A stretch of DNA of 64,000 nucleotides from Cephalotus follicularis. Its lineage: Eukaryota; Streptophyta; Magnoliopsida; Oxalidales; Cephalotaceae. The translations under genes were made by a program, and so were the position numbers. Under the pieces are notes generated by a model. It ran no database searches. It saw only the letters and a program-made list of their open reading frames with translations, and was not told the origin of the DNA. Where the stretch lies: assembly GCA_001972305.1 (NCBI GenBank), contig BDDD01005829.1:18627-82626 (forward strand). The letters are read 5' to 3'. Below, one piece after another: positions 3,363 to 59,980 of this stretch (the stretch's first letter is position 1; each line of letters opens with the position of its first letter).

Positions 3363-3391
3363 AGCTTATTTAAAAATAAGCTCTGATACCA
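3363..3391 (-). promoter_or_regulatory. Element A primer-binding site and adjoining hairpin
   Basis: 3391-3380 reads TGGTATCAGAGC on the minus strand, the complement of the 3' end of initiator tRNA-Met. An inverted repeat at 3382-3363 (AGCTTATTT against AAATAAGCT) begins with the last bases of the site. The LTR edge lies three bases away at 3395. Confidence 0.88.
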
Positions 3392-3394
3392 TGC

Positions 3395-5952
3395 TGTCAC
3401 ACCCCATTTTCCACAGGACAAGATATATGGAGATATCAGTTAAAATAATCTAGCATTCAACATTTAACAAAATTCATTAAACAATAGTGGAATCATTCCA
3501 TTGCCGAATCATAAAAATTATCCGCACGTAGCCCATACTACGTGCTTATACAATACCAACAATTATCCTTTTACATATTGGAAATGTAAAATAACAACAA
3601 CGAAGTATGATCGTTCATTTCAATACAAGACATAGTAAATAACAACCTTAGACAAGATAGAAGCTCTCCAATAAAGCTTCAGCAGCACTTGACCAACACC
3701 TTCGTCAATCAAAAATTGTAGGGGTTAGACTTTGTCCTCACTCGGCTAAGTCGGAATAAAGCATGAGAAAGAATATATAAATGTAAACATGTGTGACAGT
3801 CATTTTGAATAACATATGTAAATAAGTATTCCAATATTTATGAGCAATCATGCCGAGTGGCCATAGACAATACAATTCACGAATACCGCACAAGGGTAAA
3901 ATCAATTAATGCAGTGGTTTGGGTGTCACATGTCGCTAACTCCGAGCACCGACTACGCACCGCCTAACTATCACCATACACTCCGAAGATGATAGATCAG
4001 GTCAATTCTGCAGGCATTAAGCGGGCAGGTAACAATCAGGATATGCATTGCAGATAAGTGTGGTGGAAGATCTAGCCAACTGCTGGCATATAGAACCACC
4101 CCGTAGCCAGTGATGTCTCCTATCACTCGACTAACGGCAATAACATAGACAAACAATTCAATCAATTTAATAGTAATATTACATATATCTATAATATGCA
4201 ATATAGTAGTAGTTTCTTTTAGAAACATTTAACAATTCAGTGACCGTACCTCTCTTTTGGAGGAAACAGTATTCAATATAGTGGTGGTACCTCTCAATGG
4301 AGGAAAATCAGTAAATCATTTGACAGTAAGTTTTCATTTTGAAAAGAATAATAAGAAAATCCATATTTGTGCTTATAGCACTAGTTGGTTCAATCATTAA
4401 TATTAAGTGTAACAATAGTATTTATGAAGACTTAGTAGCTATACAATATCATTAAACAGAAGCGGAACAATCACAATTCAAGGGTTCAAACAAGATGTTA
4501 GTATACCCTAGTCATTCTTGCACAACTCTCACAAGGAGTGCATAAGTTGTTTACTTTCTGTAATGTAACTACATAAGGCCATGATTGACTGTTACAATCA
4601 TCCCATGTGGAGGGCAGGGTAATTGCATACATTTAAAGCCTAAACAGTACCTATATCAGCAATTCATCTATTAACATTCGGTTGTTCTCAAGAATATCTG
4701 GTTGTTTACCTTGAGCAGTGGACTATTTGTTCTTAACAGTCGGCTGGTTACATTGAGCAGTCGGCTGTTAAGCTCAACAGATGACTGTTTTTCCCAGAAA
4801 TCGCCAGGCAGCAGTTTTTAGTAAAACAGAGTATGCAGGTTCACAATCAAATTCCAACCAAATCAATGACATGCAATCATATAGAAATCATCCAGGCATG
4901 ATATATATATCATATTTTCTAAAACATGTCAATACCCATACCTCAAATGCTATCCCGAAATCAAATTGAGTTGATTTCTCTCTTTAGTGTCCAAAGCTCT
5001 TTCACTCCAACAATCCTCCAATCTCAGCAATTAATCTATATTGTTGCATGTTTACTTGCATATACATTAAAACCAGTAAGTTATTTTATTTATCTAATCA
5101 TGATAACAACTATAATCCAATAAGTAGCTTATAGTAATCTTCCTAAGCTTCAAACTCTTCTTTGCCGAATTACTTAATTCAATCCTCAACATCAGGCTTT
5201 ATCATTTCATGTTCATGTTGATAGTGGATATATATAGCTAACATCAATATGTTTACATCATTAACAACCTTAATATCAGTAATGAACTCAGATTGGTGAC
5301 TTACCAGGAGAATCAAGCTTTAACTTTCCCTTTGAACTCCCCACATCAACATGCAATCTCCAGAAAACTCCCTCTCTCTTTAGTGTTTTCTAAAAATCGA
5401 CTTACTCACACAGCCTCTGTTATAAAGGAAATTGTATTAACAATTCCATTTCAGTCATTAACTCCCTTTTCAGCCTTCTCCTCTTTCTCTCTCTCACATG
5501 CTCATCTCTCTTGTTTTCTTCTTCACTTTTTTGCAGGTGTGCAGAGATGGAGAACACATCCAAGGTAATAAGTCTGGCATTGCCAACAGCTAGTGACAAT
5601 TCCCTTTCATGGCTAACACGTACATGTACACATATTAAATCAATTTCCATGCTTCTGCCCTGTTTCACACGCCATGCACAGACACCTGTCTGAGCTAGGC
5701 CAGTCGTCTGTCGCCCTGTGACAGTCGACTGTCACTCCCTGAATCAAAACAGTCGGCTGTTACCCTATGACAGTCGGCTATTTGTGGCTTGTTTTGGTTT
5801 GTTAAGTGTATTTAACCACATTTGCATTTCAAATTAAACCCAACAATTCAATAACCCCAATTTATATAGTAATTAGACATTAAATCTCAATATAATGCAT
5901 ATTTTATTCATCATTGTGTAATATACTTTAATTGAAAACTGCGGTTATTACA
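3395..5952 (-). repeat. Element A 5' LTR
   Basis: 2558 bp with TG...CA ends. In reading direction it holds a degenerate array of CAGTCGACTG-like palindromes (about 5790-5690), a GA-rich tract, a TATA-like box (5428-5421), a strong splice-donor-like CTG/GTAAGTC at 5304, a second palindrome array (about 4790-4670), the conserved block CTTAGCCGAGTGAGGAC... (3757-3717; the acceptor AG seen in sister copies is lost here), and a perfect 7-bp hairpin (arms GCACGTA/TACGTGC, loop GTATGGGC) at 3545-3524. It contains no gene; short open frames inside it are chance. Confidence 0.9.
3524..3545 (-). ncRNA. Conserved LTR hairpin (element A copy)
   Basis: Arms GCACGTA and TACGTGC pair perfectly around the loop GTATGGGC. 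It lies 132 bases upstream of the primer site on the transcript sense. Equivalents occur in B, C, D, E, F and G. Function is inferred only. Confidence 0.55.
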
Positions 5953-7622: not shown

Positions 7623-8904
7623 TGTTGACGATTAAGTCTCAATCCTTGTTTTGATGATAACATATTTGCATCTAACTAAGTAACTTGATGTGAAAGGAAT
7701 TACAAGTTGAATATCAAAGTCTAAAAACCAATCTGCAGAAAAAGAAGTCGACTCCTTTCCAAATAGCAACGACGCCTTTTGTACAGGATTAACTGCAAAG
7801 AAGACATCGTCCTCCCAGTTATGGCATCGATGTCCGTACCGAAAGACATCGACTACTTCCCAAAGACGTCGACTACATTCAAGAAGACATCGACTACTTC
7901 AGTGATAACATCGACGTGTTTAGACATTTTTTGGACCAGAAGCTACTGTATGAAATTGCACTCAAAGACATCGATCCTCAACCAAAAGACATCGACGTCC
8001 AAGTAAAAGACATCGACGCCTTAAATTAGAGATCGACGCCATTTTCATAATTTCCAGAAAAAGCATCGACACCAAGTAAAGAGATCGATGCGACATTCAA
8101 GACTTGAAGACCTGGAGTTTCCAAGAAAAGACATCGACGCCTTTCAAAAAGAAGTCAACGCCTTTTCAAGTAGACAACACCCGGGAAAGCTGGAAAGGCT
8201 AGTTTAACCACTTATAACGGCTTCCCACTTAAAGACATCGACGCCTTTCATAAAGAAGTCGACGTCTTTGTACCAGCAGAGATAAAATTCAAGAATTGTA
8301 ACTCACATTTTTTAATCAAAAGCTTCCACAAATTAAGCAACGGCTATATACCTTTTCAGGCTATAAAAGGAAGCATGAAACCTCAGACAACATACCAAGA
8401 ACAACAACAATTCAGTATTATCTACATCAATCACACAACATAAAGAGAAATCCAATTCAAGCTACCTAGTGTGCCAAAAGCTCAAAGTGCTTTACATTGT
8501 TCAACAAAGCTTCTAAGCTTCTTTCTTTGAGTGTATCTAAGTGTTTCTTTTGGTGAGCTATATTTATTCACATCAACCTATTTAAGAGGTTATTGTAAAC
8601 ACTTTTTATATTACTTGTAAAAGAGGAGAATCCTCTAAGGCTTTGAGGTCAAAGTCTTGTGATTGAGGTCAATCACGAACTTGTGAGGTGTAACGATTTG
8701 CTGCCTTAATCAAATCGAGATAGTGGAAACTCAAGGAGCTCCCTTGGGAAAAGTGGACGTAGGCAAGAGTTAGCCGAACCACTCTAAAATTCGGAGAAGT
8801 TTTTCTTTCCTTGTCTCTTTAAATTTAAAGTTTTTAAATTTCCGCATTTACTTCAATATTCAATTCACCCCCACTCTTGTATATTGCAAGAGTGTTTTAT
8901 TTCA
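7623..8904 (+). mobile_element. Solo Sirevirus-type Ty1/copia LTR nested in D
   Basis: 1282 bp from TGTTGACGATTAAGTC to TGTTTTATTTCA, flanked by perfect GCATG duplications at 7618-7622 and 8905-8909. The GATGATAACA motif near the start and a TTCACCCCC motif near the end match the Sirevirus LTR at 16015-17320, and the lengths agree (1282 and 1306 bp). It carries about 15 copies of GACATCGACGCC-like palindromes at 7745-8280. Its last 342 bp were later included in the tandem duplication. Confidence 0.88.
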
Positions 8905-10904: not shown

Positions 10905-11416
10905 ACATATGAATGACCTGTTGTGCGTGTTACGCCGTAAGTAATGTATCTGGAATTGCATGCGTGGATGGAGGATGAATTCTTCCTTGGAATGGAGATT
11001 GGATGAGGTGATACCTCCTGGTACCACTTAAACGTCAACGTCTATGGAAGGCATCGACGTCTTCGGTTGCCGTGTATGAGGTCTAACGCATAACGTGAGT
11101 ACGTGTTAAGGTTCCTACCTTAAGCGTCGACACGTTGTGATGAACATCGACGCCAAGGGTTTTGGCTCTTAGGCATCGACGCCTACAGAAAAACGTCGAC
11201 GCGTTTCGTACTGTTACAAGCACTGACATTGGAAATGAACCTCGACGCTTTTGGACAATAAGCATCAAAGCGTTGAGGAAAGGCGTTGACGCCTTTCCTC
11301 CTGGTTAGAATGGTTCGACTCAATTTGGACTCGTTAGCTCCGAAACGATTCTAGAAATGACTATAGGCACGTTTGAGCATATGGTTGCATTGCATACTAC
11401 TGTGAATTGAATTGTT

Positions 11417-12622: not shown

Positions 12623-12897
12623 GACGGAGGCAATCGGACAGGTGCAGTTAAGGCTATTTTTGGAGCTGCTATTTGAAGGTTGCTTAAGCTAATTTTGTAT
12701 TATGATAATCCTACTCATGTTAGAGAGGATGATAACTCGTACTTGTTCAAATTGGATATTTTGTACTATGGGTTGAAACAACGTTTTGGGTAATTGATTT
12801 ATGTATGTGAAATTCTCTTTGGGAGATACATATGGTTTAATGAAGGTTTATTCACGCTCCGTTTTGTGAGCAATTAACAATGATGTTGTCTTGTTGT

Positions 12898-12921
12898 GAC
12901 ACGTAGTATGGGATGCGTGTC
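12898..12921 (+). ncRNA. Conserved LTR hairpin (LTR D copy)
   Basis: Arms GACACGTA and TGCGTGTC form eight pairs (one G-T) around the loop GTATGGGA. Followed by GCTTCCGC at about 12951, as in the other families. Confidence 0.55.
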
Positions 12922-13067
12922 GCGTTGTTAGTTCGGCTTATAATTGCAGGCTTCCGCAACTGATATATCTGTTTTAAAAAGGTTTAAACTTATCATAAAG
13001 TGGTTAAGCCAGATTTTTATGTTATTTGCTACCACTTAATGTCATTTTTGGGAAACGGGGTGTGACA

Positions 13068-17646: not shown

Positions 17647-18528
17647 TTATTCTATTTCACATAAACCTAGTTCTCTTCTAAGATTAGAGAAAGTATTTTC
17701 ATTAAGAGGTTTTGTGAAAATATCTGATATTTGCTCTTTTGTGGGAATATATGAGAGAACTATATCTTCTTTTTCTATATGATCCCTAATGAAATGATGT
17801 CTAATGTCTATGTGTTTGGTTCTAGAGTGATGAACAGGGTTTTTTGACAAACAAATACTACTTGTGTTATCACATTTTATTGGTATTTTATTAAACTTAT
17901 AACCATAGTCCACTAGTTGTTGTTTCATCCAAATTGCTTGGGCACAACAACTCCTGGCTGTAATATATTCAGCCTCGGTAGTGGATAGAGCAACAGAATT
18001 TTGCTTTTTACTAAACCAAGATACTAACATGCTTCTTAAGAAATGACATGATCCACTTATGCTCTTCCTATCAACCTTATATCCGCCGAAATCGGCATCA
18101 GGATAGGTATGCAATTCAAAACTAGATTCCCTCGGATACCATAAGCCTAGCGTAGATGTATATGCAAGATACTTGAAAATACGTTTTGGAGCAAAAAGAT
18201 GTGACTCTTTAGGATTAGACTGAAAATGTGCACATAAACACACAACAAACAAGATATCCGATCTACTAGCAGTAAGATATAATAAAGAGCCTATCATACT
18301 TCTATATAGCTTTTGATCGATAGATTTACCTTTCTCATCCTTATCAAGCTTTGTTGTAGTGCTCATTGGTGTCTTACTATGCTTCGCATTTTCCAATCCG
18401 AATCATTTAAGAAGATCCTTCACGTACTTGGATTGGTTGATAAAGATTCCATCTTTGAGTTGTTTTATTTGAAGTCTGAGAAAGTAGCTAAGCTCTCCCA
18501 TCATACTCATCTCAAATTCATCTTTCAT
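17647..18528 (-). pseudogene. pol: Sirevirus reverse transcriptase end and RNase H
   Basis: The 17647-18396 stretch reads without a stop for 249 residues: MIGSLLYLTASRSDI, then RNase H with DADFGG, STTEAEYI, CDNTSSICLSKNP and HIDIRHHFIRD, ending at a stop 3' of KPLNENTFSNLRRELGL. 18397-18528 holds the upstream part after a frame break. In a live element this removes RNA from RNA:DNA hybrids. It is the best-preserved piece of this element. Confidence 0.88.
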
Positions 18529-23645: not shown

Positions 23646-23675
23646 GCATATAAATGGATATATGCTCTGATACCA
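23646..23675 (-). promoter_or_regulatory. Fragment F primer-binding site and adjoining hairpin
   Basis: TGGTATCAGAGC at 23675-23664, with GCATATA/TATATGC arms beginning inside it. Confidence 0.85.
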
Positions 23676-23823
23676 CTGCTGTCACACCCCGCTTGCATTA
23701 ACAACATACAACATGGCAATTTAACAGATATTCAGCTTATATCGAGAACGATAAAATTTAAAACTTTTAAACAGACTTCATCTTGCGGAAGCATTTGCAT
23801 ATATAAGCTGAAGCAAGCGAAAC

Positions 23824-23843
23824 CATGCGTCCCATACCGCATG
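23824..23843 (-). ncRNA. Conserved LTR hairpin (F copy)
   Basis: Arms CATGCG/CGCATG, extendable with one G-T pair, loop GTATGGGA. Compared with D (CACGTA/TGCGTG), three stem positions differ and pairing is kept. Confidence 0.6.
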
Positions 23844-24150
23844 ATTCCCACAACATCCTTATCATAAACAGGTTAAAAAGTCCACAAGCGGAGCATGATC
23901 CAAAAGTTGATACAACAACAATAGCAAAACATTAGTACATAAACCAAAGTACAACATGTTCGCTACACTGCTTAACAAAACTTAAAGCAGAAAAACTCCG
24001 TCACTTCACAATCCAAAACAGCCATGGTCGGCAAGGTCCAAACGCAGCATCAATCTGCAACAGTAGGGGGTTAGCCTTTGTCCTCACTCGGCCAAAGTCA
24101 TAAAAACAACACAATATCAATAAAACCAAAGTACGAAAGCAGCATCATGC

Positions 24151-24715
24151 TGCTAGGAGTTAGCGACATGTGACACCCAAACCAAAGTATGAATTGATTG
24201 TACCCTTGTTCGGTATTCTTGCATTTGTATTGTCTATGGCCACTTGGCATGATTGCTTAAATATTGGAATACTTAAATGTTATTTTAATATAAACTGTCA
24301 TACATGTTGCATTCATATATTCCTTAACATGCATTATCTTCCTACTTAGCCAAGTGAGGACAACGGCTAACCCCTACAATTTCAGATTAAGTAAGGACGT
24401 TCAGAGATTGCTGCTGAAGCTTGGAGAGATTTTATTTTTGACTTAAGGTTGTTATTTTCTGATGTTATACTGTATTTGTAATGAACAGTTCATACCCCGT
24501 GTTACTGTTGTACTTCCTTATGAAATGATAATTTGTTGGATTGTACCTGCACGTAGTATGGGCAACATGCGGATGACTTGTATTTTATATTCCGGCTTTT
24601 GAATGCTTCCGCTTATTTATGAATTTGTTGAATCGAATGCTGGAATATTATATTTATTTATGATATCACCATATATGCTTGTGTCTGTACTAGAACCGAA
24701 GGGTGGGGTGTGACA
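24151..24715 (+). repeat. Element G 5' LTR, second part
   Basis: Resumes in TGCTAGGAGTTAGCGACATG and ends GGGGTGTGACA. Contains the conserved block with acceptor-like TTTCAG/ATT (AG at 24384-24385, CTAAC at 24367) and a decayed hairpin at 24550-24571, whose loop GTATGGGC is intact but whose 3' arm has G-to-A changes. Confidence 0.88.
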
Positions 24716-24719
24716 AGCA

Positions 24720-24747
24720 TGGTATCAGAGCATATTCCATATATGCT
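24720..24747 (+). promoter_or_regulatory. Element G primer-binding site and adjoining hairpin
   Basis: TGGTATCAGAGC at 24720-24731, complementary to initiator tRNA-Met; arms AGCATAT/ATATGCT at 24729-24747 begin inside it. Confidence 0.9.
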
Positions 24748-30922: not shown

Positions 30923-31256
30923 TGCCACGCCCCTGTCTATTTTTTTTTTCAAGAGGACAACATTAAAGCGGTAAGGCAATCAACACACTATAATTCAGCT
31001 CATGCGATAAAACGTATAAACAAAATCTTCAGTAGCGGAAGCAATAACATGAAATAAGCTTAATTTAGATATGTATCACGCATCCCATACTACATGATAC
31101 CCAACAAGTTAATATGAACCCAACATCATAGTTGATCGCCCATAACAGAGCGTGATAAAACAGTACCGGGTGATAAAATAAACTTCGTTACAATAATCCA
31201 ATTAACATAACCAATGTTTATTAACTTAGTACAAGAAATAAGAGAAACAATTTAGT

Positions 31257-32542: not shown

Positions 32543-32570
32543 AGCATATATGGAATATGCTCTGATACCA
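32543..32570 (-). promoter_or_regulatory. Element E primer-binding site and adjoining hairpin
   Basis: TGGTATCAGAGC at 32570-32559; arms AGCATAT/ATATGCT at 32561-32543. Confidence 0.9.
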
Positions 32571-32573
32571 TGT

Positions 32574-35275
32574 TGTTACGCCCCCGTTTTTTTTTTCAAG
32601 AGGACAATATTAAAGCGGTAAGGCAATCAACACACTATAATTCAGCTCATGCGATAAAACGTATAAACAAAATCTTCAGTAGCGGAAGCAATAACATGAA
32701 ATAAGCTGAATTTAAATATGCATCACGCATCCCATACTACGTGATACCCAACAAGTTAATATGAACCCAACATCATAGTTGATCGCCCATAACGAAGCGT
32801 GATAAAACAGTACAGGGTGATAAAATAAACTTCGTTACAATAATCCAATTAACATAACCAATGTTCATTAACTTAGTACAAGAAATAAGAGAAACAATTC
32901 AGTCTTCTCCTTAAGTCTCCTTGCATGCTCCATATCATATCCACTCCATCAATCTGTTACAGTAGGGGTTGGCCTTTGTCCTCACTCGGCTAAGCGAAAA
33001 GACTCATAAATGCAGTTCAAGGTATATGATAATGAGCAACATGAATGAATGCATTATGATGCAGTACAGTATATATATGTCGTAGTATATATATCGCAGT
33101 ATGTACATGTATAAGTATATGCATGTTCACAGTACAGGTGTAACCTCATAAGGCTACATCAACACAAGCAATAGGTATGTCCCAAAAAGGAACCAGACAA
33201 ACAAGTCGTCATGACCATCGCCACCTCCTGGCCCCAACATCATGCACTCTTACTCCAATCCCTGTTTGCGAACGGTTTGGAGCAAGTCCTCCATGCAGGT
33301 TGCTTAGCACGACGGCTAAACAATCAACAGGTTATTAGCACAGCGGCCAATAATCAACAAACACAAACACCGTATAGTACAAGTCAAGCATTGAATATAA
33401 TTACTTGATCAAATATATTTGTTTAAAATATATTACTCCGTTCTCAGGTTGTGATAAGTTATAAAACTTAAAACAATACATTTTGAATTGTGTAACCAAT
33501 CCTTTAAAACATTTCTCCCTCTTTGGAAAATACTTTCCCCAATCATTTCGAAAAAATATATATTCATATGTTGACAATATACATTTTCGCACAATAATGA
33601 TTATAATAATCATACAAGCTTTTCAAAATGGTTAACACTTTTTAGAAATCAACCATAATGCAATTCACAGTAATAATGCAAACATATGCTCAGGGGATAG
33701 GCATCGATGCTTATTCCCAGGGCATCGACATCTTTACCCTAAGGCGTCAACCCCTCGTACAGTTATTCCCAGGCATTTTCATACCAAAGACGTCAATGCT
33801 TTTACAAAGACGTCGATGTCTTTATGATACCAGGAGGTATCAGTTCACAAATCTTGATTCTAGAGGGTAGAATCCGGCCCTTACTCCTTCATATGATCGA
33901 ATCTCACCCTCTCAAAATGTAAGGCATGCTACTGGTTATCATAATATGTAACCAGAACATCGTTGCATGAATAAAACATGCGACTACCAGTTGCATTTCA
34001 CCATCACAGTAAACACTACTGTTCTGTAATACTCAGAAAAGGCGTCGATGTCTTCCAAAGGACATCGATGTCTTTTGCATTCACACACAAAGGCATAACA
34101 TTACTGTTCTACAATGCCCAGAAAAGGCATCGATGTTTTTACAGAACATCGACGCCTTTCACATCCACACACGAAGGCATCGACATCTTTATGTAGACGT
34201 CAATGCCTATCCAACCCAGAACGTTTTCTCCACAGTTTTAACATACCAAGCTATTATCAAATCCATCCTTTACACAAACCAGTTCACATATTCTTGTAAT
34301 CACACATGCATGGTTACTCCGTATATCACAGTAGTCATCATAGAAGTCCAGAGATTTCAATTCACCTATTAACATGCAATTCATCAATGGCATTCATTAT
34401 CTTAAAACTCAAAATGCATGTATAAGAATCATCACTTTCCCCTACCTTGTTGTTCCAATTTTGGAACTAGAACGTCCACCTCTTTTCGTTCCAAACTGGT
34501 TACAGAAGCCTCTAGGTCCTTCCCGTTGCTGCAAGCCACCAACTCCAAGTTCCAAGCTCCAACCAAGTTCAACAATGGTGGTTCTATGTTCTCCTTTTCC
34601 TTCTCTGTTCTTTCTCTCATAGTGTTTAACTGAGGAGGAGGGGAAAGAGGAGGTGTTTTATGTTGGCAGAGATCCTTCCCTTTCCTCTAGTTTCACATGC
34701 ATCCACACCCGTGTCCTCTTCTCTCTTCTCTGTTTTTGACTCTCTTCCATTTCTCTTCTGCAGGCTGCAGGTGAAGAGATGGCACAGCCGTTGCATGCAC
34801 CAGGTGAGGAACACGTTTTGGAGCATGCCTGGCAACACACCAGCATAACCAACACGTCGTATTGTGCATGGAAAGATGCAAGGATGATGCCTCAAAAGTT
34901 TCCCCATTGCATGTTATTCTGTCAGTTCGTAACGTGACTGATATTCATTTCAAAGACGTCGACGTCTTCCATAGACGTCGATGTCTTTTCCCTTTTTATA
35001 CGTGGGGGTCGATGCCTTTGCCTACCTCGACGTGCATGTACATGCATTCACGTACGCCTTTTCTCCCATAGGCGCCGACGTCTTTCCAAAGACATCGACG
35101 CGTTTATCCCAAAACTGCATCATTTTGGTTTAAACACACACATTCCTCTCTCCCAAAGCAATATTTAGGGTTTGGTAAACATTATTGAGGCAAAATCTCC
35201 AACATTTTTATTAATTCAAGCATACAATTAAATCTTAGAATGAAATATTACAAAACAAAAATACCGAGCGTTACA
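32574..35275 (-). repeat. Element E 5' LTR
   Basis: 2702 bp. In reading direction: ATCGACG palindrome arrays at 35105-34955, 34215-34040 and 33850-33700; GA-rich stretch and TATA-like CATAAAACACC (about 34665-34655); donor-like CAAG/GTAGGG near 34430; acceptor-like block ending AACAG/ATT at 32954; hairpin 32745-32722 (arms ATCACGTA/TGCGTGAT, loop GTATGGGA). A short run of diverged TTAGCAC...GGCTAA units lies at 33290-33360. Confidence 0.88.
32722..32745 (-). ncRNA. Conserved LTR hairpin (E copy)
   Basis: Eight pairs, ATCACGTA with TGCGTGAT, around GTATGGGA. The outer two pairs differ from LTR D (GA/TC) but still pair. A second copy in the 3' LTR remnant is at about 31075-31099. Confidence 0.6.
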
Positions 35276-40583: not shown

Positions 40584-43340
40584 TGTCACACCCCGTTTTC
40601 GATCACGTTAGTAGACAAGAATATATGGTGATATCAGAAATAAGCATAATAATATTCCAGCACAATTCATAAATAAATTTGCGGAAGCATTCGATAAGCC
40701 GAAATATAGATACAAGTCATCCGCACGCAGCCCATACTACGTGCAGGCATAATCCAACAATTATCCTTACATAAGGAAAATACAACAATAACGGGGTATG
40801 AACCGTTCGATACGAAAATACAGTACATCATAACAAAATAACAACCTTAAGACGACAAATAGAAGCTCTCCAAGCTTCAATAGCAAACTTCGATCGTCTT
40901 CGCCTAATCTGAAATTGTAGGGGTTAGCCGTTGTCCTCACTTGGCTAAGTAGGAAGATAATGCATGCTAAGAAATATGTGAATGCAACATGTATGACAGT
41001 TTATATTTAAAATAACATTTAAATGTGCCAATATATAAGCAATCATGCCAAGTGGCCATAAACAATACATATGCAAGAATACCGCACAAGGGTACAATCA
41101 ATTCATCCTGGTTTGGGTGTCACATGTTGCTAACTCCTAGCACCAACTATGCACAACCTAACTATCACCCTACACTCCGAAGTTGATAGATAGGGTAACA
41201 TTTACTACCGGCGTTGGCGGGTAGTTTAACAAATAAGATATGCAATGCAGATAAGTTTGGGAGATACTCTGGCCAACTCCTGGCACCCAGGATCCCTACC
41301 GTAGTCGGTGACCTCAGCCATCACTCGTCTACCGGCAATAAGCATAGACAAACAATTCAAGCATTTCAATAATAATATTACATATATCAATAATATGCAA
41401 TATAAAAGTTGTTTTCTTTCGAAACATATAACAATTCATTTATCGTACATCTCATAGGAGGGAAACGATGTCAATACAATAATGGTTCTCGATTTCGAGA
41501 ACAAACAAGTAGTACCTCTCATAGGAGGAAAATCAATAATTTATTTAAACAATGGTTTTCACTTGAAAATGATAGTTGATGTCATAATTTGGGTACATAG
41601 CCCATAGTTGGTTTAAATCATTGAAACATAAGTGGTAGTGGTGTTGAATAGCACCAAAACAGTATATACTAATATAAGGTAGCATATACAGTAACATCAT
41701 TACAATACAGTAGCAATGCAAGGATTCACAAAGAATAGCATTTCATAGTCATTCATATGCAACTCTCACAAGGAGTGCGTACATTGTTTAGTTTTGGAAT
41801 GTAATTATATATGAGGCCAGGATTGACTGTTCTAATCATCCACATGGAGGCCAAGATCATTACATTCAAATTGAGGTCCAAACAGACCTATATTAGCAAT
41901 TTTTACCCAGGACAGTCAGCTGCCCTCAAGAGTAGTTGGCTGCTTCAGTTGAGTAGTCGACTGCTTTGGCTTAACAGACGACTGGATAGGGTTGAGCAGT
42001 CGACTGCCATGAAGAACAGTTGACTGCTTCTGCCCAGAATGTGCAGGCAGTAGCAGTTTGCAATTTTCAATCTCTAATACAAATCCAATCAAACATGCAA
42101 CAATGTAGAAAAATAAACATACATGATATGCATGCTCATATCTTCCAAAACATATCGTTACCCCTACCTTAATAGCTTATCCCAAGATCAATTGAAATGA
42201 TCTTTCTCTTTGAGTTTCCAAGCTTTTCACCAACAAGCTTCCAAATCCAGTAGAGTATAATCTAACAATGCATGCATGTTTACAGGCACATGCATTAGTA
42301 CCAGTAGGTTTCTAATTATCAGTTACAAATACTACTTCAACAAAACCATATTACCAAATCCTTAAGTCTTAACTTCCATTTTACAACTTCCTCTTTTAAC
42401 TCCTTGTCAACTATCATTTCATTTCGGATTCCTTGATGTGGACAGAAGGTTTTTATATATACTTAAGAGAATCCATGTACATTTCTTAACAACTTACAAC
42501 ATCTATAATTCGAATTAGAGTTGTTAAATCCTCTAAGCTTCATGTCCATTTTCTTACTTTCTTTCATACAATTTCAATTCCATTCAAGAACTGTTAATCC
42601 CTTACCATGTTAACAGAATATAACAAACCTTCCAAGTTACATCATTAACAGTACTACTTAAGCAGGAAGCTCGAATTTGGAAACTTACCAGGAGAAATCC
42701 AAAGCTTCCAAGTTCCCTTTTGCACTCCAAGCTTTCACATGCATCCACTTACCAACAATTCTCCAGCAATTCCCTCTTCTCTCAGTGTTTTTCCAACACA
42801 CATTCAGCTCCTGGACAGCTGATATAAAGATCTGGAGCTTAGAATTCGCCAGGATCAATTACTCAGTTTCTCTCATTTCTTCTCTCTCTCACATGCACCT
42901 CTTTTCTTACCCTTTTCTCTTCTATTTTGCAGGTTGCAGCTCTCTAATTCTTGCAGAGGGAATAGAGGACATGCATGGCACTCCACTTGCATGTTATGGC
43001 GGCTAGTGACACGCATTTTGCATGCATGCCACATTTGGGACACTTGGCATCACTGTCTCTGCGTCTGCCATGCGCCTATTCTGCACCATTCCAGTCGACT
43101 GTCTTTAACAGGCAGTCGACTGCCCACTCTCGCCTCAGACAGTCGACTGTTCCCCTGTGACAGTCGACTGTCGATGGTTGTTTTTGGTTTCTTAAGTTTG
43201 ATACTTCACCAATTGTACATCCATTCATCCCAAGCAATTACCAATAACAATTTTATAATAATTGGACATTAAATTCAAATGAGTGCACATTTTATTAATC
43301 AATATTACAATGTCCACGAATTGAATTTGCGGTTATTACA
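40584..43340 (-). repeat. Element B 3' LTR
   Basis: 2757 bp. CAGTCGACTG arrays at 43172-43085 and 42035-41905; GA-rich tract; TATA-like box 42829-42821; donor-like CCTG/GTAAGTTT with intron base 1 at 42688; acceptor-like TTTCAG/ATT at 40909; hairpin 40744-40723 (arms GCACGTA/TGCGTGC, loop GTATGGGC). Confidence 0.93.
43085..43172 (-). repeat. CAGTCGACTG palindrome array in B 3' LTR
   Basis: Four perfect CAGTCGACTG units with spacing of 19-29 bp, the cleanest example in the window; its 5' LTR partner is at 46910-46995. Confidence 0.85.
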
Positions 43341-45119: not shown

Positions 45120-45147
45120 AGCATATATGGAATATGCTCTGATACCA
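45120..45147 (-). promoter_or_regulatory. Element B primer-binding site and adjoining hairpin
   Basis: TGGTATCAGAGC at 45147-45136; arms AGCATAT/ATATGCT at 45138-45120. Confidence 0.9.
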
Positions 45148-45150
45148 TGC

Positions 45151-47158
45151 TGTCACACCCCATTTTTGATCACGTTAGTAGACAAGCATATATGGTGATA
45201 TCAGAAAATAAGCATAATAATATTCCAGCACAATTCATAAATAAATTTGCGGAAGCATTCGATAAGCCGTATTATAGATACAAGTCATCCGCACGCAGCC
45301 CATACTACGTGCAGGCATAATCCAGCAATTATCCTTACATAAGGAAACTACAACAATAACGGGGTATGAACTGTTCGATACGAAAATACAGTAAATCATA
45401 ACAAAATAACAACCTTAAAACGACAAATAGAAGCACTCCAAGCTTCAGCAGCAAACTCCGATCGTCTTCGCTTAATCTGAAATTGAAGGGGTTAGCCATT
45501 GTCCTCACTTGGCTAAGTAGGAAGATAATGCATGCTAAGGAATATTTGAATGCAACATGTATGACAGTTTATATTTAAAATAATATTTAAATGTGCCAAT
45601 ATATAAGAAATCATGCCAAGTGGCCATAAACAATACATATGCAATAATACCGCACAAGGGTACAATCAATTCATCCTGGTTTGGGTGTCACATGTCGCTA
45701 ACTCCTAGCACCAACTGTGCACCACCTAACTATCACCCTATGTGCCCTCAAGAGTAGTCGGCTGCTTTGGTTGAGTAGTCGACTGCTTTGTCTTAACAGT
45801 CGACTGCCATGAAGAACAGTCGACTGCCATGAAGAACAGTCGACTGCTTCTGCCCAGAAAATGCAGGCAGTAGCAGTTTGCAATTTTCAATCTCTAATGC
45901 AAATCCAATCAAACATGCAACAATGCAGAAAAATAAACATACATTATATGCATGCTCATATCTTCCAAAACATATCGTTACCCCTACCTTAATAGCTTAT
46001 CCCAAGATCAATTGAAATGATCTTTCTCTTTGAGTTTCCAAGCTTTTCACCAACAAGCTTCCAAATCCAGTAGAGTATAATCTAACAATGCATGCATGTT
46101 TACAGGCACATGCATTAGTACGAGTAGGTTTCTAATTATCAGTTACAACTACTACTTCAACAGTATCTTATTACCAAATCCTTAAGTCTTAACTTCCATT
46201 GTACAACTTCCTCTTTTAACTCCTTGTCAACTATCATTTAATTTAGGATTCCTTGATGTGGACAGAAGGTTTTTATATATACCTAAGAGAATCCATGTAC
46301 ATTTCTTAACAACTAACAACATCTATAATTCGAATTAGAGTTGTTAAATCCTCTAAGCTTCATGTCCATTTTCTTACTTTCTTTCATACCATTTCAATTC
46401 CATTCAAGAACTGTTAATCCCTTACCATGTTAACAGAATATAACTAACCTTCCTAGTTACATCATTAACAGTACTGCTTAAGCAGGGAGCTCGAATTTGG
46501 AAACTTACCAGGAGAAGTCCAAAGCTTCCAAGTTCCCTTTTGCACTCCAAGCTTTCACATGCATCCACTTACCAACAATTCTCTAGCAATTCCCTCTTCT
46601 CTCAGTGTTTTTCCAACACACATTCAGCTCCTGGATAGCTGATATAAAGGTCTGGAGCTTAGAATTTGCCAGGTTCAATTTCTCAATTTCTCTCATTCAT
46701 TCTCTCTCTCACATGCATCTCTTTTCTTACCCATTTCTCTTCTATTTTGCAGGTTACAGCTCTGCAATTCTTGCAGAGGGAATAGAGGACATGCAAGGCA
46801 CTCCCCTTGGATGTTATAGCAGCTGGTGACACGCATTTCGCATGCATGCCACATTTGGTACACTTGGCATCACTGTCTCTGCGTCTGCCAGGCACCTATT
46901 CTGCACCATTCCAGTCAACTGTCTTTAACAGGCAGTCGACTTCCCACTCTCGCCTCAGACAGTCGACTGTTCCCCTGTGACAGTCGGTTGTCGATGGTTG
47001 TTTTTGGTTTCTTAAGTTTGATACTTCACCAATTGTACATCCATTCCCCAAGCAATTACCAATCACAATTTTATAATAATTGGACATTAAATTCAAATGA
47101 GTGCACATTTTATTAATCAATATTACAATGTACACGAATTGAATTTGCGGTTATTACA
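45151..47158 (-). repeat. Element B 5' LTR, internally deleted
   Basis: 2008 bp, otherwise very close to the 3' LTR, including the promoter region, donor, acceptor-like block and hairpin (45312-45291, loop GTATGGGC). The missing 745 bp lies within the putative intron. The second palindrome array (45745-45850) has five units next to the deletion. Confidence 0.92.
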
Positions 47159-50290: not shown

Positions 50291-52694
50291 AATGTAAAAT
50301 AACAACAACACCAACAATTATCCGCACGAAGCCCATACTACATGCCCATACTACGTGCTTACACAATACCAACAATTATCCTTTTACATATTGGAAATGT
50401 AAAATAACAACAACGGAGTATGATCGTTCATTTCAATACAACATAGTAATAACAACCTTAAAAAAGATAGAAGCTCTCCAATAAAGCTTCAGCAGCACTT
50501 CCTCGAACGCCTTCACTTAATCTGAAATGGTAGGGGTTTAGCCGATGTCCTCACTTGGCTAAGTAGGAATAAAGCATGAGAAAGAATATATAAATGTAAC
50601 CATGTATGGCAGTTATTTTGAATAACATATGTAAATAAGTGTTCCAATATATATGAGCAATCATGCCAAGTGTCTATAAACAATACAATTCAGGAATACC
50701 GTACAAGGGTAGAATCAATCAATACAGTGGTTTGGGTGTCACATGACGCTAACTCCTAGCAGCAACTGCGCACCGCTGAACTATCACCCTACACTCCGAA
50801 GATGATAGATCAAGTCAATTCTGACGGCATTTAGCCAGCAAGTAACAATCAGGATTTGCATTACAGATAAGTTTTGTGGAAGCTCTGGCAAACTCCTAGC
50901 ACATAGGACCACCCCGAAGCTAGTGATGTCTCTTATCACTCAACTAACGGCAATAGCATCGACAAACAATTCAATCAATGCCGTAGCAATATTACACATA
51001 TCTATAATATGCAATATAGTAATTGTTTTCTTTTAGAACATTTTAACAGTTCAGTGACCGTCCTCTCTTTTGGAGAAACAGTATTCAATACAGTAGTTGT
51101 GCCTCTCGTTGGAGGAAAATTAGTAAATCATTTGACAATAAATTCCATTTTGAAAACAATAAGAAGAAAATCCATATTCGTCCTTATAGCACTAGTTGGT
51201 TCAATCATTAATATTAAGTGTAACAATAGTATTTTTGAACACTTAATAGCTATGCAGTATCTATAACAGCATCATTAGACAGCAGCGGAAAAATAACAAT
51301 TCAAGGGTTCAAACAAGATGTTAGGATACCCTAGTCATTCTTGCACAACTCTCACAAGGAGTGCATAAGTTGTTTACTTTCTGTAATGTGACTACATAAG
51401 GCCATGATTGACTGTTACAATCATCCCATGTTAAGACCAGGGTAATTACATATCACTTAAGCCTAAACAACAGCTAATATCATTAATTTAACACTTAACA
51501 GTCGGCTGTTTATATTGAGCAGTCGACTGTTAGGTTAAACAGTCGTCTGTTTTTGTCCAAAAATGTCATCCAGCTGTTTAATCAAAACGAAGGATGCATG
51601 TACAATGTCCAATTCAATCCCATTAATAACATGCAATCACATAGAAATTATCCATACATGATATACATATTATATATTCTAAAACATGTCAATATCCCTA
51701 CCTCAATCGCTATCCCAGAATCAAATTGGATTGATTCTTTTCTTTAAGTTCCAACTTCACTCAACACCAACAATCCAGAAGTTTAATGCTATAGGTGCAT
51801 GTTAACAGGTATATGCAACGAAAATCAATAACCTAATATGTTTGACTAACTACCATATCAACACCGAATAAAACCAGTAACTTACCAGGAATTCCTAAGC
51901 CTCAAACTTCCTTTTGAGTTCCAACCTTATATCCACTCAACTCCAATTCCAGCAATTAACTATATGTGTGAGTTAACAGAAGATATATATAGTACACAAC
52001 CAGTACATATATACCTATTGAATAATTATAACACATTTGAAATCATGTAGCAGCTTACCTATTAAATTCAAGCTTCTAACTCCACTTGGAACCCCAACTA
52101 ACATGCACAATCAATACGGCGGTTGAACTCTTCTCTCCAGACGATTACTAACCTCTTTGAACACTCAAACAACACTGATATATAGAACTTGTGGTTCCAG
52201 TGACCAGTTCTAGTCATAACTCAAGGCTCCCACTCTTCTCTTCTCTCTCTCACATGCACTTCTTCTCACTCTTTTCTCTTTTGTTTTGCAGGTTGTAGGT
52301 CTGCAGATGGAATAGAGCACATGAAAGACACCACTCTTGCATGTTGCACACTTGGTGGCGCGCATCTATCAAGCAAGACACATTTAGGTTGCCACTGCTC
52401 TGTTTTACACGCCATGCACAGACACCTATCTGTGCCAGACCAGTGGACTGTTGCCCTATGACAGTCGACTGTCACTCATGGAATCAAAACAGTCAGTCGT
52501 TACCCTGTGGCAGTCGGCTGTTTGAGGCTGGTTTTGGTTTGTTAAGTGTATTTCACCACATTTGCATTTCAGATCAAACCCAACAATTCAACAACCCCAA
52601 TTTATATAGTAATTGGACATTAAATCTCAATATAATGCATATTTTATTCATCATTGTGTACAATATACATTAATTTAAATTTGCAGTTATTACA
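50291..52694 (-). repeat. Element C 3' LTR, truncated
   Basis: About 2.4 kb; the last about 150 bp are missing or scrambled. Palindrome arrays at 52525-52430 and 51555-51490. TATA-like box near 52185-52176. Acceptor-like TTTCAG/ATT near 50523. Confidence 0.88.
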
Positions 52695-53331: not shown

Positions 53332-53518
53332 GTCACACCCCGTCTTTCCACAACATAAAAGTGGTAAAGCAATCAACAAATAAATCCGGCTTATGCAAAT
53401 TTACCATAAATTTAAAACTTTCCATATCCATGAACAACTTGCGGAAGCATCAAATATAAGCCGAATTAAAACACATCACGCATCCCATACTACGTGATGC
53501 CCACAAAAACAAACATAA
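53332..53518 (-). repeat. Foreign LTR fragment inside element C integrase
   Basis: 187 bp starting, on the plus strand, TGTCACACCCCGTC, with GCGGAAGC and the hairpin CATCACGTA/TGCGTGATG around GTATGGGA (53499-53474). This is the 3' end of an LTR of the D/E/F type. It replaces about 200 bp of integrase, including the catalytic Glu region. Confidence 0.8.
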
Positions 53519-57393: not shown

Positions 57394-57421
57394 AGCTTAT
57401 TTAAAATAAGCTCTGATACAA
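57394..57421 (-). promoter_or_regulatory. Element C primer-binding site (mutated) and adjoining hairpin
   Basis: TTGTATCAGAGC at 57421-57410, one mismatch from the site in other copies; arms AGCTTATTT/AAATAAGCT at 57412-57394, as in A. Confidence 0.85.
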
Positions 57422-57424
57422 TGC

Positions 57425-59980
57425 TGTCACACCCCGTTTTCTGTAAAGACAACATATATGGTGATATCAGTTATAAAATAATAATCCAGCATTCAACATT
57501 AATCAACATCATTAACATAAGCGGAAGCTTTCCATTGCCGGATTATAAAAAAAAATTATCCGCACGCGGCACATACTACGTGGCTACACAATACCAACAA
57601 TTATCCTTTTACATGTTGGATATGTAAAATAACAACAACAGACTATGATCATTCATTTCAATACAACATAGTAATAACAACCTTAATTAAGATAGAAGCT
57701 ATCCAATAAAGCTTCAGCAGCACTTCCCCAAACACCTTCACTTAATCTGAAATTGTAGGGGGTTAGCCGATGTCCTCACTTGGCTAAGTAGGAATAAAGC
57801 ATGAGAAAGAATATATAAATGTAACCATGTATGGCAGTTATTTTGAATAACATATGTAAATAAGTGTTCCAATATATATGAGCAATCATGCCAAGTGTCC
57901 ATAGACAATACAATTCAGGAATACCGCACAAGGGAAAAATCAATCAATACAGTGGTTTGGGTGTCACATGTCGCTAACTCCTAGCACCAACTGCGCACCA
58001 CCGAACTATCACCCTACACTCCGAAGATGATAGATCAGGTCAATTATGCCGGCATTTAGCAGGAAGGTAACAATGAGGATCTGCATTGCAGATAAGTTTG
58101 GTGGAAGATCAAGCCAACTCCTAGCACATAGGACCACCCCGTAGCCAGTGATGTCTCCTATCACTCGACTAACGGCAATAGCATAGACAAACAATTCAAT
58201 CAATGCAGTAGCAATATTACACATATCTATAATATGCAATATAGTAATTGTTTTCTTTTAGAACATTTTAACGGTTCAGTGATCGTCCTCTCTTTCGGAG
58301 GAACACTATTCAATACAGTAGTTGTGCCTCTCGTGGGAGGAAAATCAGTAAATCATTTGACAATAGGTTTCATTTTGAAAACAATAAGAAGAAAATCCAT
58401 ATTCGTGCTTATAGCACTAGTTGGTTCAATCATTACTATTAAGTGTAACAATAGTATTTATGAACACTTAATAGCTACACAGTATCTATACCAGCATCAT
58501 TAGACAGTAGCGGAACAATCACAATTCAAAGGTTCAAACAAGATGTTAGTATACCCTAGTCATTATTGCACAACTCTCACAAGGAGTGAATAAGTTGTTT
58601 ACTTTCTGTAATATGACTACATAAGGCCAGGATTGACTGTTACAATCATCCCATGTGGAGGCCAGGGTAATTACATATCACTTAAGCCTAAATAGCAACT
58701 AATATCATTAATTTGTCACTTAACAGTCGGTTGTTCATAAAAATAGCCAGCTGTTTTCATTAAGCAGTCGACTGTTTGTCCTCAACATTCGGTTGTTTAC
58801 ATTGTGCAGTCTACTTTAGGTTAAACAGTTGACTATTTTTGTCCAGAAATGTAAGGCAACAGTTTAATCAAAGCAGAGGATGCATGTACAATGTCCAATT
58901 CAATCTCATTAATAACATGCAATCACAGACAAATTATCCAGACATGCTATACATATTATATCTTCTAAAACATGTCAATACCCCTACCTCAATCGCTATC
59001 CCAGAATCAAATTGGCTTGATTCTTCTCTTTGAGTTCCAACTTCACTCAACACCAACAATCCAGAAGTTTAATGCTATAGGTGCATGTTAACAGGTATAT
59101 GCAATGAAAATCAGTAACCGAATATGATTGACTAACTACCATATCAACACTGAATTAAACCAGTAACTTACCAGGAATTCCTAAGCCTCAAACTTCCTTT
59201 TGAGTTCTAACCTTATATCCACTCAACTCCAATTCCAGCAATTAACTATATGTGTGAGTTAACAGAAGATATATGTAGTACACAATCAGTACATATATAC
59301 CTATTGAATGATTATAACACATTTGAAATCATGCAAAAGCTTACCTCTTAAATTCAAGCTTCTAACTCCACTTGGAACCCCAACTAACATTCACAATCAA
59401 TAAAGTGGTTGAACTCTTCTCTCCAGACGATTACTAACCACTTTGAACACTCATGCAACACAGATATATAGAACTCGCTATTCAAGTGACCAGTTCTAGT
59501 CATAACTCAAGGCTCCCACTCTTCTCTTCTCTCTCACACATGCACTTCTTCTCACTCTTTTCTATTCTATTTTGTAGGTTGCTGGTCTGCAGATGGAATA
59601 GAGCACATGCAAGACACCACTCTTGCATGTTGCACACCTGGTGGCACGCATCTATCAAGCAAGACACATTTAGGCTACCACTGCTCTGTTTTACATGCCA
59701 TGCACAGACACCTGTCTGTGCCAGACCAGTCGACTGTTGCCCTGTGACAGTCGAATGTCACTCCTTGAATCAAAACAGTCGGCTGTTACCCTGTGACAGT
59801 CGGCTGTTTGAGGCTAGTTTTGGTTTGTTAAGTGTATTTCACCACATTTGCATTTCAGATCAAACCTAACAATTCAACAACCCTAATTTATATAATAATT
59901 GGACATTAAATCTCAATATAATGCATATTTTATTCATCATTGTGTACAATAAAAATTAATTGAAATTTGTGGTTATTACA
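57425..59980 (-). repeat. Element C 5' LTR
   Basis: 2556 bp. Palindrome arrays at 59805-59725 and 58840-58720; TATA-like box 59470-59463; donor-like AGAG/GTAAGC with intron base 1 at 59344, and a second CCTG/GTAAG at 59171; acceptor-like TTTCAG/ATT at 57747; hairpin near 57562-57582 with decayed loop GTATGTGC. Confidence 0.9.

Follow-up and report, generated by a model that had tools for sequence, protein, structure and literature searches.

The ways in which long terminal repeat (LTR) elements choose and open their primer tRNA are known in detail mainly from the yeast Ty elements and from retroviruses. Ty1 is primed by the initiator tRNA-Met (tRNA-iMet), and the excerpts of the literature at hand describe short boxes outside its primer-binding site (PBS) that fit the T and dihydrouridine (DHU, or D) arms of this tRNA and lie 3′ of the PBS, within GAG; no contact with the anticodon loop is mentioned in them. 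Ty3, which belongs to the Ty3/gypsy elements and also uses tRNA-iMet, has more than one contact segment, with the second part of its PBS at the 3′ end of the RNA and measuring 24 nt, against 8 nt in the 5′ part, according to the available portions of two reports (PMC4974528, PMC11381356). For HIV-1, excerpts state that contact between the A-rich loop and the anticodon of tRNALys3 supports infectivity and RNA integrity and that an 8-nt primer activation signal (PAS) pairs with another arm of the tRNA (PMC7793103, PMC3675109); the A-rich loop has also been proposed to protect the RNA (PMC7793103). Here we analyse a stretch of 64,000 nt, called the window throughout, from contig BDDD01005829.1 of Cephalotus follicularis, a plant with a genome of 1.58 Gb. 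The window consists mostly of nested LTR retrotransposons, and we propose that the LTRs of these elements may carry an extended primer site of their own.

For plants, the accessible parts of two surveys indicate that most chromoviruses use full tRNA-Met at a standard PBS, and they make no mention of tRNA boxes inside the LTR (PMC6317226, PMC3605345). In the first of these surveys, as far as its excerpt goes, PBSs complementary to tRNAs were sought no more than 50 bp downstream of the 5′ LTR, and inside the LTR for self-primers only. Variation in length is said, in an excerpt of another study, to have prevented the construction of an LTR model for plant Metaviridae (PMC3601003). Ty1, Ty3 and HIV-1 are known to have such extended contacts with their primers; our searches of the open-access literature, judged by titles, opening lines of abstracts and selected excerpts, listed none described for plant LTR retrotransposons, nor any tRNA boxes inside plant LTRs.

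The elements of the window resemble Ty1 in being primed by tRNA-iMet and in carrying, outside the PBS, short boxes complementary to the D arm; in contrast to those of Ty1, the boxes do not lie 3′ of the PBS but 5′ of it, inside the LTR, one on a hairpin and the other in a closed loop. They resemble Ty3 in their family, their primer and the presence of more than one putative contact segment, but all of these segments are in the tail of the LTR that adjoins the PBS. As in HIV-1, a conserved loop 5′ of the PBS, here TATGGG, is complementary to the anticodon loop of the primer, here CCCATA. HIV-1 uses another primer and its second contact is with the T arm instead of the D arm, and we claim no relatedness; moreover, the likeness is here one of sequence, and all counts given below were computed from this one genome.

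Our proposal, to which we assign a probability of roughly 0.72, is that LTRs of tRNA-iMet-primed Ty3/gypsy elements contain at the end of U5 (the unique 5′ region) a module for docking the primer tRNA, in which the primer site would be extended to three tRNA contacts. In a first hairpin (hairpin I), UAUGGG(C) would be exposed for pairing with CCCAUA in the anticodon loop (nt 31-36 in the tRNA gene, 32-37 in standard numbering); in a loop closed by a second helix (helix II), (AU)GCUUCCGC would be exposed for pairing with GCGGAAGC(GU) in the D loop and stem, at nt 15-22, or up to nt 24 if the AU takes part; and the PBS, UGGUAUCAGAGC, would pair with the 3′ end of the acceptor. Loop-loop recognition of the folded tRNA inside the particle appears to be the likely mechanism. 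Contacts between the D loop and the T loop lock the elbow of a tRNA, and pairing with the D loop would compete with these tertiary contacts and help to free the 3′ end for the PBS. The D-loop contact would thus suit a step in which the tRNA is opened, since the contacts that lock the elbow would be disturbed. In addition, the GGG of the hairpin loop would face C33, an unusual base at this position, and give the initiator an advantage over the elongator tRNA-Met. From sequence, the D-loop contact appears well supported, while the anticodon-loop contact, of 6 bp and limited to the group of LTRs called group 1 below, is plausible. We infer that the region is present in the RNA leader and that the pairings form there and act in annealing, selection or packaging; by analogy, the role could be annealing itself, choice of the initiator for the particle, or protection of the RNA as proposed for the HIV-1 A-rich loop.

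The elements of the window, which we label A to G, are Ty3/gypsy retrotransposons. Domains of this type (Retrotrans_gag, Ty3_capsid, RVP_2, RVT_1, RT_RNaseH_2 and Integrase_H2C2) were found in seven of eight separate pieces of open reading frame, and direct LTR pairs with an adjoining tRNA PBS are present: the LTRs of element B form the repeat pair 40638-40937/45206-45505 (95% identity) and those of element E the pair 30940-31239/32587-32886 (97% identity), the PBS adjoining one copy in each case. A clade name such as Tekay/Del might apply but is a guess on our part, and an iMet PBS is not specific for that clade, because it is common to most chromoviruses and to copia elements. The LTRs end at their 3′ side in GGGGTGTGACA or a near variant, while a scan for 5′ LTR ends located none. 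The primer site TGGTATCAGAGC, complementary to the 3′ end of tRNA-iMet, follows at 3380-3391 in A, 45136-45147 in B, 32559-32570 in E and 23664-23675 in F (all on the minus strand), at 24720-24731 in G (plus strand) and, with one mismatch, at 57410-57421 in C (minus strand).

Hairpin I of element A (3524-3545, minus strand) has the stem GCACGTA/TACGTGC and the loop GTATGGGC, the complement of the tRNA-iMet anticodon loop. The same loop stands on a 9-bp stem in the PBS-adjoining LTR of element B (45289-45314, minus strand), and the other LTR of B has its hairpin at 40721-40746 (minus strand); the loop GTATGGGA is found on 11-bp stems in D (12895-12924, plus strand) and F (23819-23848, minus strand), and 10-bp stems occur in the PBS-adjoining LTR of E (32720-32747, minus strand) and in an LTR fragment lying in C (53473-53500, minus strand). 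In G the loop GTATGGGC is intact (24556-24563, plus strand) on a decayed stem, and in C's own LTR the loop itself has decayed to GTATGTGC, reading GTATGTG (57569-57576, minus strand). These hairpins had been named in an earlier note on this DNA, which described the last two as decayed; all are present at the places it gave and their arms pair as it claimed. Its coordinates are 3524-3545 for A, 45291-45312 and 40723-40744 for B, 12898-12921 for D, 32722-32745 for E, 23824-23843 for F, 53474-53499 for the fragment lying in C and 24550-24571 for G. If G-T pairs are admitted, the stem of A is unchanged and the other intact stems become 1-5 bp longer. A hairpin in the other LTR of E (31073-31100, minus strand) was absent from its list. 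It also overlooked a doubled loop at 50332-50350 (minus strand), where GTAGTATGGGC occurs twice, nearly in tandem, within one hairpin region; the LTR piece concerned ends a few dozen bases 3′ of the hairpin, before the place of the box described next.

That box, GCTTCCGC, lies about 40 nt 3′ of the hairpin and had gone unnoticed in the earlier note. We call it the D box: its reverse complement is GCGGAAGC, which stands unchanged in the D loop and stem of tRNA-iMet. A search of both strands of the window gave nine exact copies, each of them in one of these LTR tails and shortly 3′ of the hairpin: at 45249-45256 and 40681-40688 in the PBS-adjoining and the other LTR of B, 32682-32689 and 31035-31042 in those of E, 23785-23792 in F, 57521-57528 in C and 53441-53448 in the fragment lying in C (all on the minus strand), and at 12950-12957 in D and 24605-24612 in G (plus strand). 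Eight of them have TATGGG upstream, and the intact box of C has the decayed loop. Only the copy in A departs from GCTTCCGC, having decayed to GATTCCAC (3487-3494, minus strand, identified by eye), with two changes.

To count both boxes beyond the window, LTRs were chosen by their end and PBS only, without regard to either motif. The pattern GTGACA-N1-5-TGGTATCAGAGC occurs at 18,093 places genome-wide, against 18 for the reversed control, and the first 100 of these places (contigs C1 to C14) were all read; two of the 100 LTRs contain N inside the last 400 nt. Eighty of them belong to the group found in the window (group 1), and the remaining 20 are other families (group 2), in which a TTT spacer precedes the PBS. 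Within the last 250 nt of the LTR, TATGGG is present in 69/80 of group 1 against 0/20 of group 2; a first-order Markov null predicts 0.16 per LTR. The exact D box is present in 51/80 against 0/20, or in 70/80 against 0/20 if one mismatch is allowed, with a null of 0.00075 per LTR. The ordered pair, with at most one mismatch in the D box, is found in 60/80 against 0/20 (null 0.001 per LTR). Four control words, made by reversing or reverse-complementing the boxes, occur in 0-2 of the 80 LTRs of group 1, and in group 2 two of the 20 LTRs contain GGGTAT and one contains CGCCTTCG with one mismatch. Allowing a mismatch in TATGGG is uninformative, because the relaxed word matches 80/80 in group 1 and 15/20 in group 2. 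Neither box is present in two LTRs, L068 and L073. Among 12 LTRs counted as being without TATGGG in a narrower stretch, eight are one change away from GTAGTATGGG.

The same picture emerged from ranking and from genome-wide counts. When all 6-mers from the 330 nt that precede the LTR end were ranked blindly in a subset of 57 group-1 LTRs, TATGGG came first (49/57). The two boxes in their proper spacing occur at 40,394 places in the genome, whereas the reversed pattern occurs at 71; one exact form of the loop with its right arm, GTATGGGMTACGTGC, occurs 1,037 times and its reversed control twice. At 10,922 places the D box precedes GTGACA by 80-110 nt, compared with 18,093 GTGACA-PBS junctions in all. 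When the junction of D box and LTR end was followed by the looser primer pattern TGGNNNC, 10,922 of 11,612 places (94%) read TGGTATC; the other 690 were not looked at.

Both boxes are also conserved well beyond their surroundings. In an alignment of all 80 group-1 LTRs, with a median pairwise identity of 0.62, TATGGG and GCTTCCGC average 1.52 bits each, against 0.76±0.40 in 199 other columns. By windows of eight columns, the D box reaches 1.52 and the loop 1.46 bits, and the best value elsewhere is 1.24 once hairpin I and the LTR terminus are excluded; apart from the terminus and the PBS, these are the most conserved windows of that width in the tail. Grouping the LTRs at 80% identity yields 28 clusters, of which 24 contain TATGGG, 20 the exact D box and 20 both in one member (with at most one mismatch in the D box), and at 70% identity the numbers are 7, 8 and 7 of 10 clusters. 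Measured from the LTR end, the boxes are 80-164 nt upstream, with the loop at 127-164 nt in the genome sample, which agrees with the distance between hairpin and primer site given in the earlier note.

Covariation of the stem, also claimed there, is borne out in this genome. Among 67 rows with GTATGGG there are 46 different arm pairs, and when their first eight pairs were scored, 350 of 368 cells held standard pairs, against 295±5 and a maximum of 315 in 2,000 shuffles, which ignore kinship between rows; pairing was clearly lower once one arm had been slid. Changes on both sides are seen at pairs 1, 2, 4, 5, 7 and 8, as well as at pair 9, outside the scored eight, and the stem is unbroken for at least seven pairs in 56 of the 67 rows. 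The hairpin is not a product of chance.

A conserved loop containing ATG could also be read as an upstream start codon serving leader translation or ribosome shunting, and its context is good: of 76 aligned loops, 75 have a purine (A or G) at −3 and 72 have G at +4. Nevertheless, the frames that begin there run for 2-59 codons and vary greatly in length (64 of 67 are closed), about seven other ATGs lie upstream of it within 240 nt, the whole of GTATGGG is conserved and not just ATGG, and a start codon would leave the D box and helix II unexplained. We consider this interpretation quite improbable, and it was rejected as the main explanation on account of the short, variable frames and the ATGs ahead of them.

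The position of the hairpin within the LTR bears on another possibility. In a set of 67 LTRs, TATA-like words are concentrated at 260-300 nt upstream of the hairpin (47 TATATA hits in the 280 bin), and there is a smaller cluster at 340-380 nt. If these clusters are promoters, the hairpin would be located some 230-250 nt into the transcript, with the PBS another 150 nt or so further on. Group-1 LTRs also have a conserved block, AGTGAGGACAA...CTAACCCC...TTTCAGATT, at about 180-240 nt upstream of the hairpin (around 3720-3760 in the window), where it directly follows the TATA-like cluster; it looks like a start-site or splice-like signal. It might be argued that the boxes are regulatory sites at the level of DNA, the ACGT-rich stem being a transcription-factor site, given that many families have CACGTA/TACGTG in the stem and that LTRs carry promoters. 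Against this, changes in the stem are compensated (CATGCG/CGCATG, GCGTGCA/TGCACGT and others), the TATA-like cluster is upstream of the boxes, and a DNA-level reason is absent for a complementarity to the tRNA D arm that is antisense with zero sense matches. We therefore regard regulation through DNA as very improbable.

The tRNA genes of the plant itself agree with docking of the primer tRNA. A stretch of tRNA-iMet, AGCGGAAGCGTGGTGGGCCCATAACCCACAGGTC, has six occurrences in the genome, and at two of them (L161 and L162) the gene looks intact over its full length. These genes confirm GCGGAAGC as the D-arm sequence complementary to the box and the anticodon loop CCCAUAA that the earlier note had given. 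The tRNA set used for comparison came from 40 loci among 62 matches listed, 39 of which were called by ARAGORN; with the iMet gene L086 it comprises 39 distinct sequences of 21 types, the elongator tRNA-Met being outside the set. Exact complements of both boxes are found together in tRNA-iMet only among these 39 sequences, and CCCATA is found in none of the non-iMet members. The loop of the elongator tRNA-Met, which we take to be CUCAUAA, would then be discriminated against by the GGG of hairpin I. Duplex energies calculated on bare tRNA segments, with the folding of the tRNA ignored, are −15.7 to −18.3 kcal/mol for the D box and −7.5 to −10.7 kcal/mol for the anticodon box. The 300 nt downstream of 24 group-1 LTRs show no excess of boxes 3′ of the PBS: matches of at least 8 nt were found in 0/24, against a null of 0.20. 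Apart from these matches, an exact 22-nt 5′ part of tRNA-iMet occurs at 90 places, and seven of the eight fetched were not tRNA genes according to ARAGORN. Six such loci (L079, L080, L081, L082, L084 and L085) share flanks around the iMet-like part, near position 1500 of each, that are suggestive of a Cassandra-type element, 5S-rRNA-like with an iMet-like middle; Rfam called no 5S in the five that were scanned.

Elements with another primer provide a control. In the last 154 nt of 20 LTRs with the PBS TGGCGCCGTTGCCGG, which by their ends are mostly of two kinds, TATGGG and GCTTCCGC were each found in 0/20 and an 8-nt complement of the iMet D arm likewise in 0/20, while GCTTCCGC with one mismatch was found in 1/20. 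We have thus seen the loop with no other primer. The suggestion that the loop may be a contact for the primer tRNA gains support on each of the three points at which the earlier note had thought it might fail: the stem covaries, the near-invariant loop shows no drift away from complementarity to the tRNA, and no family with a different primer was seen to carry it.

What strengthens the idea of a primer contact most is the D box, because it complements the D loop of tRNA-iMet and recurs in other iMet-primed families. LTRs ending in AACA with an iMet PBS occur at 8,880 places, some group-1 copies included. From these, the first 40 listed that do not read AACAGTGG were taken (places of that type were skipped because many are group 1) and combined with the 20 LTRs of group 2; BLAST linkage divides this set into 23 families, whose last 150 nt were scored against the tRNA-iMet D arm (nt 10-26). 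An exact complement of at least 8 nt is present in 8 of the 23 families, of at least 10 nt in four and of 12 nt in two, whereas shuffles give 0.2 families (maximum 3) at 8 nt and 0.01 at 10 nt, and the sense strand gives none at 8 nt. When 25 other tRNAs were compared by their D regions, each matched zero or one family, except Asp, which matched three, and other parts of tRNA-iMet show no excess in the same 150 nt of the 23 families (one or two families at 8 nt, and one 10-nt match to the T arm). The match is not universal inside families, being found in 4/7 LTRs of the L174 family, 1/2 of the L180 family and 2/11 of a group-2 family, in addition to five single LTRs. A related count gave 322 places where CTTCCGCT stands 5-35 nt before AACA and an iMet PBS, against none for the reversed word; among the 100 places listed, 99 are not group 1, and in these the next base fits the tRNA in 89, the next two in 75 and the next three in 40. 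The occurrence of the D box at differing distances in several iMet-primed families that BLAST does not relate points to a function with the primer itself and argues against simple common descent.

Some of these families have further features of note. CCAGGTT, a complement of the tRNA-iMet T arm, adjoins the LTR end of AACA-ended families (L165, L171 and L173; 17 of the 99 CTTCCGCT places listed) and is a possible further tRNA contact, which would recall the T-arm box of Ty1. In several families the stretch from the D box to the LTR end contains a short inverted repeat rich in GC, CGCTCGGGCCGAGCG (for example, at G000:C425:364643-364689), perhaps a second helix. L178, from the set of other families, has a box of the group-1 type at 266 nt, beyond the 150 nt counted, which may stem from a nested element. 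L199 combines a D box with a 9-nt complementarity to the anticodon arm; we do not count it as a second case of anticodon complementarity, because by a rough estimate a 9-nt match to the tRNA is expected about once in the set. Outside this genome, a scan of the genome_contigs collection for the three-part pattern gave no match, and three loci inspected elsewhere in viral and prokaryote scans had no such module; four matches in viral_contigs looked by eye like phage terminase coding DNA, judged by a protein motif, and were rejected.

Fragments from the 5′ part of tRNAs act against plant transposons, and it could be asked whether the boxes are targets of iMet fragments through which the host silences the element. 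This is hardly credible: the complementarity covers 8-13 nt at the D arm and stops short of the 5′ end of the tRNA, and a harmful target site should decay, whereas the boxes are among the best-kept parts of the tail.

The recurrence leaves the two boxes on unequal footing, and it is tentatively possible, if doubtful, that the D box alone contacts the primer while the hairpin with TATGGG serves some other purpose in the RNA, for instance Gag binding or packaging, and matches the anticodon loop by coincidence. Unlike the D-loop complement, the anticodon complement shows no excess in other iMet families (TATGGG in 0/20; 8-mers of the anticodon arm in 1/23 families, equal to the 1/23 of the sense strand), a match of six bases is easily obtained by chance, and there are conserved loop bases outside the pairing. 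On the other side, TATGGG is the commonest 6-mer of the tail, held in 24/28 clusters and exposed on a covarying stem; it keeps its spacing to the D box at the 40,394 places mentioned, and the tRNA whose anticodon loop it fits is also the one matched by the other two sites.

In docking of the primer tRNA, the D box would be displayed by helix II, for which the evidence is as follows. The stretch before the box pairs with one that lies mostly 15-50 nt after it, so that the box is near the 5′ side of the closed loop, and the arms are specific to families (for example, TTCAGCTTAT/ATAAGCTGAA, ATATTCCGGC/GCTGGAATAT, ATAATCCAGTATT/AATACTGGATTA and TACAGCTTATG/CATGAGCTGTA). In 59 rows, the mean duplex energy is −15.4, compared with −11.0 for shuffled arms and −13.0 when partners are swapped between LTRs; the true partner is better than the shuffle mean in 53/59 and better than the swap mean in 47/59. 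In element F, the minimum free energy fold places the arms TTCAGCTTATAT and ATATAAGCTGAA at 23801-23812 and 23731-23742 (minus strand, coordinates counted by hand), with the D box inside the loop that they close. Folds of single sequences leave the loop of hairpin I open in D, E, F and the fragment lying in C.

A further possibility is that both loops pair within the RNA of the element as a pseudoknot or switch, TATGG with CCATA after the PBS and TCCGC with GCGGA after the hairpin. In favour of such pairing, CCAT occurs after the PBS (within at most the first 30 nt) in 47 of 68 LTRs with TATGGG, and a 5-mer complement of the D box occurs between hairpin and box in 19/60. However, TATGGG is kept in 21/68 LTRs where no CCAT was seen after the PBS, most of which have less than 30 nt there (5/20 where at least 30 nt are available), and the full complements CCCATA or GCGGAAGC occur in 0/60 leaders. 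Partners of this kind are not supported as a general feature, and we consider internal pairing unlikely.

Several observations weigh against the proposed docking module itself. The anticodon-loop contact is just 6-7 bp long and contains AUG, which matches the initiator anticodon anyway. It would include position 37, which is modified in such tRNAs. The G of GTATGGG is strongly conserved although it faces A38, and the T (U) before GCTTCCGC is strongly conserved although it could form a wobble pair at most. One tRNA-Asp (L148) also has GCGGAAGC. CCATA or CCCAT follows the PBS in 33/60 LTRs and could pair with the loop within the RNA. Single-sequence folds pair the loop to 0.32 in A and B and to 0.98 in G, and they pair the D box partly, with means of 0.36-0.84 for the nine copies of the window, which calls its accessibility into question. 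Group 2 has the same PBS without TATGGG, and an 8-nt match to the D arm is found within the last 150 nt in 2/11 LTRs of one of its families; the contacts would therefore not be required for iMet priming as such, since group 2 mostly lacks the boxes. Finally, everything comes from one genome, as sequence.

Even so qualified, the module would be of some consequence for the biology of these elements. The sequence points to a module for reading tRNA, located in a repeat group that is among the most abundant of a plant genome and for which many natural variants, controls in the form of other families and other primers, and a second, apparently independent recurrence are at hand. It offers exact bases to probe, an explanation for conserved LTR blocks that a main survey of primer sites passed over, and, in the boxes, a new way to mark U5 and primer choice. 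On balance, we think it somewhat probable that iMet-primed plant LTR elements have repeatedly evolved U5 boxes that read the D loop, with a hairpin for the anticodon loop as a further acquisition of the dominant Ty3/gypsy group. If this is true, tens of thousands of copies would carry, inside the LTR, a three-point device for the specific capture of the initiator tRNA.

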